Assembly (NCBI GenBank): GCA_013329055.1
Contig: DUKY01000020.1
Location: forward strand, 124,012-177,122
DNA length: 53,111 bases
Origin: Nanobdellota archaeon
GTDB taxonomy: Archaea > Nanobdellota > Nanobdellia > Pacearchaeales > GW2011-AR1
Direction of reading: 5' to 3'
The notes under the pieces were generated by a model that did no database searches, was not told where the DNA came from, and saw only the letters and a program-made list of their open reading frames with translations. Positions 27,692 through 41,203 of this stretch are shown here, one piece after another. Both the position numbers and the translations under genes were made by a program. Within the stretch, counting starts at the first letter, position 1. The number at the start of each line of letters is the position of its first letter.

Positions 27692-28039
27692 ATGGTAAGA
27701 GAAATTAAACCGCATATACAACTTGAGAATTTTAGTCATGGGCTTTTTCCTAATGAAAGAATTGGTTCTTTTAAGGATTATCATGGAGAAAAACAATTTT
27801 TAGAATTACAAACTTGCAATTCTAATTTTACTAAATATGGTTTGTTGGAAGTATCTGTTTTACAAAGTGAAGGTGATAAGGCATTAATTCAAGCACGAAA
27901 TGAATGTTCTCTTCGATGTTATGTGGTTAAAAAAGATGATTTAAGGATGGTTAATACCGATACTTTACGATATGATAAAAATGATTTTCCATATGTTGTG
28001 GATGCTAATCATGAAATTCATTATCTAAAAAAGAACTAA
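27692..28039 (+). CDS. Small beta-type protein, paralogue of 28752-29102
   Basis: A 115-residue protein. It shares HIQL..F..GLFPNE.IG, a LQTCNSNFT block, GLLEV.V and EGDKALIQ with the gene at 28752, so the two are duplicates. The fold may be an SH3-like barrel. A strong GGAGG lies 12-16 bases before the ATG, unlike most genes here, and the upstream AT-rich leader resembles that of the paralogue. Function unknown. Confidence 0.62.
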   Translation: MVREIKPHIQLENFSHGLFPNERIGSFKDYHGEKQFLELQTCNSNFTKYGLLEVSVLQSEGDKALIQARNECSLRCYVVKKDDLRMVNTDTLRYDKNDFPYVVDANHEIHYLKKN

Positions 28040-28751: not shown

Positions 28752-29102
28752 ATGAAATTTATTAATTGGTTGTTTAATGATTTAAGTGAAGGTCAAGACA
28801 TTTTACAAAATAAGACTCCACATATACAACTTTATGATTTTAAAGAGGGATTATTTCCGAATGAAAAAATTGGATATTATTTAGATTCTGATGGGCAAAA
28901 AAAGTATATTGAGATACAAAGATGTAATTCTAATTTTACCCAAGAGGGTTTATTAGAGGTTAAAGTTTGTGAAATTGAAGGGGACAAAGCATTAATTCAA
29001 GTGTGTAATGAATGGAAAATAGATAATGGGATAATCAAAACTAGTGATTTGAAATATTTTAGTAAAAACGAGTTGCAATATCTTAAAGAAAATGAATATT
29101 AA
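28752..29102 (+). CDS. Small beta-type protein, paralogue of 27692-28039
   Basis: A 116-residue protein with an N-terminal extension (MKFINWLFNDLSEGQDILQN) absent from the paralogue, then the shared core HIQLYDFKEGLFPNEKIG, IEIQRCNSNFTQEGLLEV and EGDKALIQVCNE. AAAGGAGGT lies 11-19 bases upstream of the ATG. The dUTPase gene overlaps its end by 11 bases. No family is recognised. Confidence 0.62.
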   Translation: MKFINWLFNDLSEGQDILQNKTPHIQLYDFKEGLFPNEKIGYYLDSDGQKKYIEIQRCNSNFTQEGLLEVKVCEIEGDKALIQVCNEWKIDNGIIKTSDLKYFSKNELQYLKENEY

Positions 29103-33661: not shown

Positions 33662-33931
33662 AATTTGTTTAGATGAAAATTTTATTAAGGAAGTTGTAAA
33701 AATGTTGTAATTAAAGGGGTGGAGGACTTTGTTGATTTAATATAGTGAGTTTTAATTGGTGTTTAAAATTAAAAAATGATTAATGTATTAATATGGTTAA
33801 TATAAGCCAAAATATGGCTAAATGATGGGAAGTAGCGAATTAAATGTATTTGGAATTTAAAATTAGTTATCTGTGCAAAATAGATATTAAATGAATATCT
33901 TTAAATAATTGATACATTTTATTCTTTTATT
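33662..33931. other. Non-coding stretch, no gene seen
   Basis: Stops occur in all frames. It contains a short coding-like fragment at 33702-33746 (VVIKGVEDFVDLI, then stop), a small AGCCA/TGGCT hairpin at about 33807-33821 and, at the end, the CTTTAAATAATT box (33900-33911) that is a plausible promoter for the RNA candidate that follows. Confidence 0.4.
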
Positions 33932-34020
33932 GGAAGGGGCGGTAGGGATTTGTTTACCTTGCTTTGACAGGATTAAACTTAACTACTTACTCTTTACGAG
34001 GCGTCTTTCAATTTTTTTTA
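33932..34020 (+). ncRNA. Possible small structured RNA, cloverleaf-like
   Basis: A GC-richer island in AT-rich DNA. The ends pair: GGAAGGGGC (33932-33940) with GCGTCTTTC (34001-34009), eight of nine positions including two G-U. Inside are three candidate hairpins: GGTA/TACC (33941-33958), CTTG/CAGG (33958-33971) and CTC/GAG (33991-34000). A CTTTAAATAATT box lies about 25 bases before the 5' end, and a run of eight T follows (34012-34019). It lacks a tRNA T-loop and D-loop consensus, so it is not called a tRNA. Family unknown. Confidence 0.5.
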
Positions 34021-34134
34021 TTTTATAATATAATATTATTTTTCTTGAAAATTATATATTCTTTTTTATGCAGTTATTTTTAAATAACTTGATGAAGAAA
34101 TAATTCGTGGCTAATAAAAACATTTTTATACTAT

Positions 34135-34148
34135 GTATCTATAGATAC
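34135..34148. promoter_or_regulatory. 14-base perfect palindrome, likely operator
   Basis: GTATCTATAGATAC lies 4-17 bases before the ATG at 34152 of the nucleotidyltransferase gene, at or just downstream of the expected transcription start. A protein bound here would block initiation. Autoregulation by one of the two gene products is likely by analogy with TA modules. Confidence 0.6.
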
Positions 34149-34151
34149 CAT

Positions 34152-34985
34152 ATGATAAAACAATCAATTTTAACAAATATGGAAAAAGAAGTAATAAACA
34201 AAAGATTAAATAATGAGAAACTTACAAAACAGGATTCTTATTATTTAAGCAAATCTATAAGACCGAAACTAAAACAGATAGAAGAATTGAGTAATAAAAA
34301 CCTTTTACAAAGAGTTAAATACAATCATAAAGCAAAAATTATAGAAAGAAATATAATTGAACTCATTCTTAAAGAAATCAAGGTAGTGAAATCAATAATT
34401 CTCTATGGTTCTGTAGTGCAAACTAATTATTCAAAATATAACGATATAGATTTGCTAATAATAACAAAAAACAAAGTGTGGGAAAATAACTGGAAAAAAA
34501 AGGATATAATAAATAATCTAGAAGATAAAGCAAAGAAAATCGGGTTGAAATTGGATATTCAAATTTTAGATATTCAAACCTTCAGGGAAGTTTATACTTC
34601 CAACCCCTCTTTAATTTATCAAATGAAGGATAACAAAGTGATTTATGGAAAATTAAATATCCCTAAAAGAATAGAATTACCAAAAATAGTTCTTAAAATG
34701 AAATTAGACTGGAGTGATTTAGATTCAATTAATCCTTCTGGAGAAGAAATATACAATTGTATAAGAAATACTTTATTAGTTAGGCTTATATTGACGAAGA
34801 TAATTGATAACTTTTATTTGTCTAATTATCTTATTGAAGAACTGGGTAAAAACCTGATAAGGAATCTTAGAGAAAATAAAGCATCAAAAACAGAAAAGAA
34901 AATGGCTATAGACTATTTAAATAAAATAAATGAGGAAACCCTTAAAGAGATAAATAATGCAACATGGGAAAAGATAGTGATATAG
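34152..34985 (+). CDS. Nucleotidyltransferase-fold protein (MNT type)
   Basis: A 277-residue protein with the polymerase-beta-like NTase motif ILYGSVVQTNYSKYNDIDLL (Gly86, Ser87, Asp98, Asp100), preceded by a basic helical N-terminus and followed by a C-terminal helical domain resembling HEPN in length. The ATG at 34152 is chosen because the upstream region includes a palindromic operator. The final 22 bases overlap a 102-residue gene. The pair could form a toxin-antitoxin or defence unit. Confidence 0.7.
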   Translation: MIKQSILTNMEKEVINKRLNNEKLTKQDSYYLSKSIRPKLKQIEELSNKNLLQRVKYNHKAKIIERNIIELILKEIKVVKSIILYGSVVQTNYSKYNDIDLLIITKNKVWENNWKKKDIINNLEDKAKKIGLKLDIQILDIQTFREVYTSNPSLIYQMKDNKVIYGKLNIPKRIELPKIVLKMKLDWSDLDSINPSGEEIYNCIRNTLLVRLILTKIIDNFYLSNYLIEELGKNLIRNLRENKASKTEKKMAIDYLNKINEETLKEINNATWEKIVI

Positions 34986-35272
34986 AAAGCATAAGTAATA
35001 GCATATCAAAAACAATCTTGCACGAGATATTGATAGAGTATTCCAACAGACCAGAATCATATCCTCACTTAAAAAAAGAGGAAGTTGAATATAGAGGACA
35101 ATCCATGAAAAAGATAAATGAAAGAAGATTAAACGAAGATGATAAAGATATAATCAGGAATAAAGTTATAAGAAAAATTAATAATCGCCTGAAATCAAGA
35201 TATAGCGATATTCATATTCCATTAGAGAGTATTTCCAAGAAGGTTGATGAATCTCTTTTTCTATTTTTATAA
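34964..35272 (+). CDS. Small helical partner of NTase, unknown
   Basis: A 102-residue charged helical protein (SISNSISKTILHEILIEYSN, RRLNEDDKDIIRNKVIRKIN). It overlaps the NTase gene by 22 bases and the 3' end of the convergent DUF1616 gene by 61 bases. There is no known motif. The tight coupling with NTase and the upstream palindrome suggest a two-gene operon. It could be an antitoxin or a small effector subunit. Confidence 0.55.
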   Translation: MGKDSDIESISNSISKTILHEILIEYSNRPESYPHLKKEEVEYRGQSMKKINERRLNEDDKDIIRNKVIRKINNRLKSRYSDIHIPLESISKKVDESLFLFL

Positions 35273-39651: not shown

Positions 39652-39689
39652 CATAAAACCCTTAAAAGTAAGTCTTAAAATTACTTTAT
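39652..39689. repeat. Direct repeat flanking the AbiE cassette (left)
   Basis: A 38-base sequence beginning CATAAAACCC and ending ATTACTTTAT, repeated at 41461-41498 with two differences. It contains an internal hairpin (AAAGTAA/TTACTTT). Its end holds the stop codon of the AbiEii gene. Confidence 0.7.
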
Positions 39690-40601
39690 CCCTTCAGCTA
39701 TTTCAATCAGTAACGGCTTAAGCTCTTTGACATAGTTGTCGAAGTCCTCTTTATTAAATGGCTTTATTACTAGAGGGCGGACTTCATTATATTGAAACTC
39801 AAGAATCTGAAGTTTATCTCTTGCGAGAATAAGATTATCTTTATATTTTTCATAGCTGTTTATTGAATACATTAGTTTTTCCTTTGTTTCCTTAAGAAAG
39901 TCTTGGGGTTTTATCTTGAACTTTTGATAGATAAATAAAAGGTCAATTGCATCTCTTGACTTGATGGCTTTTCTTGTTAATATTGAACGGAATTTCTCAG
40001 TTACAATTTCTTTAAGGTCATAAACCTTCATCCTTATTGTTTTATAGAAGTCAAGAAATTCCTTAAAGTAAATTTGATCTTCTTTTGTAAATTGGCTAGG
40101 TTTGATTAAAGGATTTAGCTCTTTAGTTTGTGGGGTAAATATTATCTTTTCTAAGAAGTTAATTTGAATTTTGATAAAAGAAGGTTTTCCTGTTAAAACT
40201 GAGTCATAATAGACTTTGAAAGTTACAAGTTTATTATTGTTCCCCATTTCAACAAAGTTTCTATCAGCTTTATCAAATTTAAAGTTAAATCCCACTTTCT
40301 CAATCTGCTCTCCTAAAGCATCTATTTTTTCCTTGCAAATTTTCTTTATACTCTTAGTTGATTTTCCTTCCCAAAGTTTCTGGTCAATAAAAGTAAAATC
40401 AAGGTCCTCTGAAAATCTAAAATAATCAAGATATGCTTTAGCCAGGCAAGTTCCTCCCTTGAATACATATTCTTCAAAATTAAGCTTTGAAAGAAGAATA
40501 TTAAGGTAAAAATCCTTTTCAATTAGTTCTTGAGCAGTTATATTTGTTTTATCCTTAACTGAATTAAGAAAGTTCTTGAATTTGTTTTTATCTAATTCCA
40601 T
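39681..40601 (-). CDS. AbiEii-type nucleotidyltransferase toxin
   Basis: A 306-residue protein with the family motifs YVFKGGTCLAKAY (about residues 45-57) and RFSEDLDFTF (62-71), a conserved KM-type segment (TIRMKVYDLKEIVTEKFRSI, AIKSRDAIDLLFI) and a C-terminal helical domain. AbiEii transfers nucleotides to cell targets (tRNA or proteins in studied cases) and is neutralised by AbiEi. It is encoded directly after AbiEi with a one-base overlap. The family length is complete. Confidence 0.88.
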   Translation of the reverse strand: MELDKNKFKNFLNSVKDKTNITAQELIEKDFYLNILLSKLNFEEYVFKGGTCLAKAYLDYFRFSEDLDFTFIDQKLWEGKSTKSIKKICKEKIDALGEQIEKVGFNFKFDKADRNFVEMGNNNKLVTFKVYYDSVLTGKPSFIKIQINFLEKIIFTPQTKELNPLIKPSQFTKEDQIYFKEFLDFYKTIRMKVYDLKEIVTEKFRSILTRKAIKSRDAIDLLFIYQKFKIKPQDFLKETKEKLMYSINSYEKYKDNLILARDKLQILEFQYNEVRPLVIKPFNKEDFDNYVKELKPLLIEIAEGIK

Positions 40602-41203
40602 TATAGCATCTCTTTTATTTTCTTTTTGACTATTCTATTGTATTTATTTGATTCCTTAAGAAAAAGCGATTTATTAAATTTATACTCTTTTAGGTTTACA
40701 TCTTTCTTAAGATAAAGCATATCCAAGAGAGTTTTTTCTATATTGCTATAATAAAGCGAGATATTGTTTCCTGTATTCACTTTATCTATATCAAAAAACA
40801 AAGAAGGCTTTAATTTTATAAAAAAGAAACTCGAGCCAGCGATTTTCATTGGCTTTATTCTATTAAATTTATCATTGATGACTATGTTTATTGGAAAAAC
40901 TTCATGAGTTAAGCCAAGAAACTTTAGTGCAGTATTCAAACCAAAATACCACTTAACATTTTTCTTTTCTAAGCCGAGAGCTAATAACTCATAAGGAGAA
41001 TATTTCAAAGAATTTAATTTTTTTTCTTCGTAATCTTTTAAATAATAAACCCCTCTAAAGATTGTGATAAGGTAGCCTTTGTTTAGCATAACTTTTCTTA
41101 ATGTATCTTTATCAAATTTATACTTAGTTGCCAGGCTATCAAAATCTTTTCTTGTGAGGATTTTACCCTTTGCTTCTCTTAAGATTGTGTCTATTTTATT
41201 CAT
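40601..41203 (-). CDS. AbiEi-type antitoxin/regulator
   Basis: A 200-residue protein. The N-terminal winged helix (ILREAKGKILTRKDFDSLAT, FDKDTLRKVMLNKGYLITI, then FRGVYYLKD) is followed by the AbiEi-like domain (YSPYELLALGLEKKNVKWYF, SLYYSNIEKTLLDMLYLKK). In the family it represses the operon and blocks AbiEii. The TTCACCT/AGGTGAA inverted repeat 8-25 bases before its start is a probable operator. Confidence 0.85.
   Translation of the reverse strand: MNKIDTILREAKGKILTRKDFDSLATKYKFDKDTLRKVMLNKGYLITIFRGVYYLKDYEEKKLNSLKYSPYELLALGLEKKNVKWYFGLNTALKFLGLTHEVFPINIVINDKFNRIKPMKIAGSSFFFIKLKPSLFFDIDKVNTGNNISLYYSNIEKTLLDMLYLKKDVNLKEYKFNKSLFLKESNKYNRIVKKKIKEML

Follow-up and report, generated by a model that had tools for sequence, protein, structure and literature searches.

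A small structured RNA in a Nanobdellota genome and its relatives convergent with genes of predicted RNase H-like fold

The RNA element and its surroundings

The DNA studied here, in the following simply called the window, is the whole stretch of 53,111 nucleotides from contig DUKY01000020.1 of a Nanobdellota archaeon. It carries a putative structured small RNA on the forward strand, and the next gene on the 3' side of this RNA is an operon on the same strand, consisting of a nucleotidyltransferase (NTase) and a 102-aa protein (34107-35272). Homologues of the RNA were found in two other genomes, namely the MAG CSMAG_405 (G032) and Ca. Pacearchaeota RIFCSPLOWO2_01_FULL_38_24 (G059). The elements of the RNA locus are the following:

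33900-33907, + strand: archaeal TATA-like box TTTAAATA, predicted promoter of the RNA (from sequence; 22-29 bases 5' of the stem)
33929-34012, + strand: structured small RNA, putative, 84 nt, with its ends taken from the closing stem
33929-33937, + strand: 5' strand of helix P1, ATTGGAAGG (from fold and covariation; 33939-33940 prolong the helix)
33941-33945, + strand: 5' strand of helix P2, GGTAG, pairing with CTACT at 33983-33987 (from fold and covariation)
33946-33951, + strand: 5' side of the internal loop between P2 and P3, GGATTT (from the alignment of the three homologues)
33952-33978, + strand: P3 arm with the hairpin loop CTTTGA (from fold and covariation)
33990-34000, + strand: short hairpin P4, CTC/GAG, which is TGC/GCA in G059 (from fold and covariation)
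34001-34012, + strand: 3' strand of P1, in which TCTTTCAAT occupies 34004-34012 (from fold and covariation)
34012-34019, + strand: T-run of eight T, likely terminator (from sequence; the RNAs of G032 and G059 also end in a T-run)

The predicted fold is a three-way junction formed by the closing helix P1, a long arm made up of P2, the internal loop and P3, and the 3-bp hairpin P4. In P1, nine base pairs are followed by a G-G mismatch and then by two more pairs (GC with GC, 33939-33940 with 34001-34002). The GGAT of the internal loop and the facing TTAA (33979-33982) are invariant across all three homologues. A sequence-only reading of the window had proposed a cloverleaf with three internal hairpins. 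Its closing stem, TATA-like box and T-run were all recovered where it had placed them, the outer stem being longer than described; the interior had to be redrawn as a three-way junction with one two-helix arm and one 3-bp hairpin. That reading had also set the element apart from tRNAs, which agrees with our searches, as neither ARAGORN nor Rfam returned a match for the window RNA.

The folding energy of the segment is -21.1 kcal/mol, T-run included, with a z-score of -2.3; as 10 of 200 shuffled sequences were equally stable, this is only moderately unusual. A composite scan of both window strands (TATA-like hexamer, stem of at least 9 bp, TTTTT) returned two places, namely the RNA locus and one place within a coding gene. 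Rfam gave no match in the window at the gathering threshold, and none for 33700-34150 at E values up to 10. On the 5' side of the RNA, the + strand between 33640 and 33800 is nearly free of C, with a GC skew of about +0.9.

Elsewhere in the window, a gene of the AbiEii toxin family lies on the - strand at 39681-41203 (Pfam, E 2.9e-28), and upstream of it is a 200-aa gene without a Pfam match which we take to be the AbiEi antitoxin. Two neighbouring genes at 27692-28039 and 28752-29102 encode paralogous proteins of 115 and 116 aa, 52% identical over 90 residues and without a Pfam family; a dUTPase gene adjoins them.

Homologues, covariation and the NTase operon

A DNA search of 92 relatives identified the copy in G032 (E 4.3e-20, 79% identity), covering query positions 14-145 including the promoter, where TATAAATA aligned at the position of the TATA-like box of the window. 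At E up to 1, every one of the 92 relatives matched in some way, and G032 was the sole genome among them with a match across the RNA itself: six further genomes with E below 0.001 were dropped, as their matches cover the A+T-rich promoter only (query 8-56). Folded independently, the G032 RNA takes the same shape, with a z-score of -2.75 and 2 of 200 shuffles as stable. A covariance model built from the window and G032 copies (R1) then detected the third copy in G059 at E 4.7e-6. The model of all three sequences (R2) scores the window RNA, itself one of the three, at 81.9 bits.

Over the three sequences, two-sided changes were observed in 11 of 29 base pairs, a number that none of 500 shuffles reached, with the limit that the hand-made alignment with its N padding leans the count towards structure. 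In P1, they concern 6 of 12 pairs. When the pairing partners were slid by one to three columns, the count fell to 0-6 pairs. We regard this conservation as the decisive evidence that the putative RNA is real. Thus, sequence and conservation bear out a putative separate small transcript with a promoter and a terminator of its own, as suggested from the window alone.

This RNA type is rare, with three members only. No further copy was accepted with R1 over 181 genomes of the family, 200 of the order and 378 of the class (overlapping sets); in the class, the single matching genome (1/378) was that of the window itself. With R2, 5 of 180 genomes of the order matched at E 0.5, three of which were accepted. 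Several other candidates were rejected: G183, for which the match consists of 37 A+T-rich bases (E 0.07); G210 (E 0.29), without a visible TATA box or T-run and with a z-score of 0.23; and G130 (E 0.41), with many non-standard pairs. The same holds for an exact 16-mer in 38 viral-contig stretches, in which the model gave two weak matches (E 0.32), for the pattern matches L063-L065, without a model match, and for L068 in Pedobacter, with a model E of 1.6 only. No copy of the RNA was found in phages. The 444-aa gene on the 5' side of the RNA was discarded as a marker of synteny, because it occurs in 49 of the 92 relatives without the other neighbours of the RNA; a G059 gene whose product resembles that of the 444-aa gene only weakly and locally (28% over 108 residues), about 2.4 kb past the RNA and in a different order, was likewise not counted.

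Regarding the NTase operon, R2 matched the window's own locus only among 14 NTase loci, and thus none of the 13 others, which represent 12 distinct places (L134 and L135 overlap) and include four that are only distant relatives. Upstream of NTase homologues up to 66% identical, no RNA was found within 250 bases at seven loci, and the pair of NTase and 102-aa genes is kept at eight other places without the RNA. At E 1e-5, neither G032 nor G059 gave an NTase homologue. The sequence-only reading had itself named a lack of conservation upstream of related NTase genes as a refutation; this lack is observed, and the NTase as a conserved link to the RNA is refuted. Because the operon is conserved elsewhere without the RNA, their adjacency in the window would be due to chance or to a shared spot that is prone to insertions.

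The NTase and 102-aa genes form a conserved two-gene unit of their own (window 34107-35272; loci L123-L128 and L133). At several of these loci, an A+T-rich dyad can be seen by eye at the start codon of the NTase or directly 5' of it (about 34134-34152 in the window), perhaps an autoregulatory operator.

The convergent partner gene

In G032 and G059, the RNA faces a convergent gene that encodes about 160 aa, and the 3' part of the RNA overlaps the last codons of this gene by up to about 40 bases. The homologues of the window RNA thus pair with this gene and not with an NTase, contrary to the initial proposal that the NTase might have the RNA as its substrate or partner. The two proteins share 33% identity (E 5e-27), without a Pfam family or a match to PF12686. 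With the G032 protein as query, 18 of 181 family genomes matched at E 0.01, four of which (G012, G052, G203, G214) were unsupported by the profile. This profile of the partner family (A7, 15 members, with proteins of about 145-170 aa) matched 22 of 378 class genomes, including two false ones (ribosomal protein S3-like); within the order, 23 of 180 genomes matched at E 1e-5. The distribution of the family is patchy and scattered through the class. The 15 proteins gave only scattered single or double weak matches in Pfam, NCBIfam and PHROGs, and no relative among solved structures by sequence. No relative was found in viral contigs, and no match in plasmids for the two members tried. In the open-licence literature, no account of such archaeal RNA/protein pairs was found.

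In the case of the window, no partner-family ORF was found in any frame (best E 0.28). Its own genome holds two partner-family genes, on contigs C1 and C16, with RNAs of a different type. As this genome is about 85% complete, a partner acting in trans may be missing from the assembly. The genomes of the relatives are for the most part incomplete as well.

The structure of the partner was predicted with AlphaFold2 from only two sequences (pLDDT 74.7, pTM 0.73), with the order of elements bbb-a-b-a-b-a. In VIA-align, the 50 rows comprised RNase HII/H3/H2, retroviral integrase cores, the Prp8 RNase H-like domain, endonuclease V, IstA and Argonaute, headed by A. fulgidus RNase HII (Z 8.0, rmsd 3.1, 112 residues aligned). 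With Foldseek, the best match was an integrase core (E 0.0062), followed by RNase HI. An RNase H-like fold is therefore predicted for the partner: the rows agree on it, with a modest Z of 8, at the level of the fold and without a close family. All 15 members have Asp 6 and Ser 8, H66 is present in 13, and position 89 is Asp in 13 and Glu in two. Position 124 varies, with His in nine members and Asp in the other six, and catalysis by the partner protein is therefore no more than plausible.

Where partner genes end, the same arrangement recurs on the opposite strand: a TATA-like box, a gap of about 25 bases, a closing stem, a branched middle and a T-run. This was cast into a rule, namely a TATA-like hexamer 16-42 bases 5' of a stem of at least 7 bp, which spans 63-125 bases and ends between -35 and +45 from the stop codon. 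The pattern was present at 28 of the 29 partner loci on which the rule was drawn, versus 10 of 135 other ORFs of the same loci and the window. At loci fetched after the rule was fixed, it was present in 7 of 8, versus 9 of 87 control ORFs, and two further partner loci outside the fitted set (L097 and L101) also showed it. Beyond the fitted set this makes 9 of 10 loci. In both sets, several loci are mutually close relatives, so that the counts are not independent events, and the control ORFs include chance ORFs. L095 and L142 were missed by the rule and have a stem visible by eye, and at L077, L081, L102 and L111 the stem picked by the rule may differ from the true closing stem. Kept outside the count were L096, where the contig ends 17 bases past the stop codon, L108 and L109, which are ribosomal protein S3-like by eye, L082, L083, L084, L086 and L087, without a family member, and the duplicates L088-L094 and L136-L140.

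These RNAs belong to several classes, across which R1 and R2 fail to recognise them. Many fold as P1, a P2-loop-P3 arm and P4, whereas others do not. One class of six members, shaped like the window RNA, showed two-sided changes in 6 of 27 pairs, and none of 500 shuffles gave as many. At 15 partner-family loci, no Rfam match was obtained at the gathering threshold, nor at E up to 5 for 13 of them and others, and none of the RNAs there was recognised as a tRNA. Altogether this shows a conserved structured RNA family which, outside the window, is convergent with the gene of predicted RNase H-like fold, its 3' stem lying at or just inside the stop codon.

Two of these surroundings deserve a separate description. 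In G059, a second, distant member of the family (L148, G059:C1:302526-302834) lies about 13 kb from the first one, together with an RNA-like element; a CRISPR reading, suggested by a Cas4-like neighbour in G059, was dropped, as a primase-like gene adjoins. On C16 of the window's own genome (G000:C16, L149:1165-10878), a row consists of hsdS, unknown genes, the RNase H-like/RNA module, a DUF3800 gene and hsdR. The C16 module and the DUF3800 gene thus sit inside a type I restriction cluster.

Proposed function and relation to known systems

Like DUF3800 and its RNAs, RNA and partner probably form a ribonucleoprotein module in which the RNA would most likely restrain the nuclease in an antitoxin-like manner, the window copy being an orphan RNA. 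The RNA would be transcribed from its own promoter, and its three-way junction, together with the conserved GGAT/TTAA internal loop, would serve to bind the protein. Once bound, it would hold a metal-dependent nuclease in check, or would direct it. Restraint would be the likeliest role, which would make the window copy an orphan RNA of the antitoxin type. This role is favoured because no testable partner gene is clearly without an RNA, while an RNA without the protein exists; coming from a single orphan RNA, this asymmetry is a weak argument for an antitoxin.

The same gene layout would also arise from an obligate cofactor or guide. We consider it unlikely that the RNA activates or directs the nuclease in this way, within a defence or selfish ribonucleoprotein, with the window copy acting in trans or being a remnant. 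The close linkage of RNA and protein, the RNase H-like fold and the one module within a type I restriction cluster would fit such a role, as would the TPR-DUF3800 protein that PMC10910872 describes with Cas12a2 systems. However, no free guide-like stretch is apparent by eye, as the variable positions lie mainly in helices and hairpin loops, and a cofactor without its partner should decay.

The window RNA, on the contrary, retains its promoter, all helices and the T-run, which indicates that selection probably acted on it until recently or still does. This also bears on a rather unlikely alternative, in which the window RNA lost its partner recently and is now a relic that no longer functions. 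Such a relic would agree with a window that holds no partner gene and with C1 and C16 modules that carry different RNAs, but not with two-sided pair changes relative to G032 and G059 in helices that are intact, nor with the retained TATA-like box.

Quite improbable is a role of the RNA strand mainly in cis-antisense or convergent terminator control of the protein mRNA, as in type I pairs with 3' overlap. The 3' ends do meet or overlap in G032 and G059, yet antisense pairing needs no conserved three-way junction with two-sided changes, the bulk of the RNA lies outside the ORF, and the orphan copy has no mRNA to pair with. Finally, that the RNA serves the adjacent NTase operon as substrate or partner, to which adjacency in one genome points, can practically be dismissed on the distribution of the operon given above.

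We suggest only tentatively that these pairs may represent a widespread, unrecorded archaeal class of RNA/nuclease modules. Fast-diverging three-way-junction RNAs would be bound by small RNase H-fold proteins, and such toxin-antitoxin or defence units would have been distributed among small-genome archaea by transfer and loss. The window RNA would be a free-standing antidote that shields its host against these modules.

Compared with known systems, type III and type I toxin-antitoxin pairs are alike in that an RNA partners a protein, and the 3' overlap is as in some type I pairs. They are unlike in that here there are no tandem RNA repeats, the RNA is on the opposite strand, and the protein is RNase H-like by prediction and not ToxN-like or small and hydrophobic. 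TnpB/IscB omega-RNA nucleases share with the present pairs an RNase H-fold nuclease and a structured RNA at the gene end, whereas here the RNA has a promoter of its own and lies on the strand opposite to the gene, whose product is one domain of about 160 aa.

The closest layout is that of DUF3800, which Weinberg reportedly linked to putative ncRNAs in 2017. For DUF3800, PMC10910872 describes an RNase H fold in which the catalytic residues are rearranged, and a link to putative ncRNAs. Two such RNAs were located in our material: DUF3800-X (RF02984) at L117 (2151-2220, - strand), where the DUF3800 gene ends at 2151, and DUF3800-V (RF02964) at L181, a plasmid of Ca. Tenderia electrophaga (1863-1961, - strand), where the gene ends at 1863. 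Both are convergent and abut the DUF3800 stop codon. They represent 2 of 15 DUF3800 loci scanned (7 at E up to 1 and 8 at E up to 0.1; L116 excluded). At the archaeal DUF3800 loci L114, L118, L120 and L121, RNA-looking convergent 3' ends without an Rfam match were seen by eye, possibly further DUF3800 RNAs without an Rfam entry. PF12686 matched three times in the window's own genome (C14, C16 and C19), and not on C18, the contig of the window.

The likeness consists of a structured RNA convergent with an RNase H-fold gene and with its 3' end at the stop codon; in addition, the N-terminal Asp-x-Ser strand of the partner recalls, by eye, the DESG of DUF3800. The differences concern both components. 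Firstly, the window type is a three-way junction, whereas DUF3800 RNAs are nested helices without a side hairpin; no Rfam DUF3800 model fits the window RNA or the scanned partner-family RNAs, and the rule given above picked up only 1 of 8 DUF3800 loci, so that the RNA shapes differ. Secondly, the partner, with its 145-170 aa, is not recognised as PF12686, and a profile comparison with DUF3800, a weak test with three DUF3800 sequences, gave no link. The convergent RNase H-fold neighbour is moreover present in G032 and G059, but not at the window copy.

As the layout is DUF3800-like, with another RNA shape, another protein, no link between the profiles and no partner in the window, we firmly conclude that RNA and partner are a new, further form of the DUF3800-type RNA/nuclease module, of which the window copy is the RNA without the protein. 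The present pairs also bear on DUF3800 itself, where RNase H-fold proteins are linked to structured RNAs. They bring in a second, separate protein family, from small-genome archaea, whose genes likewise lie tail to tail with an RNA. This family offers many natural pairs and one RNA-only copy, and with a protein of about 160 aa and an RNA of about 85 nt, the question of whether such RNAs restrain or direct their partners becomes directly testable.
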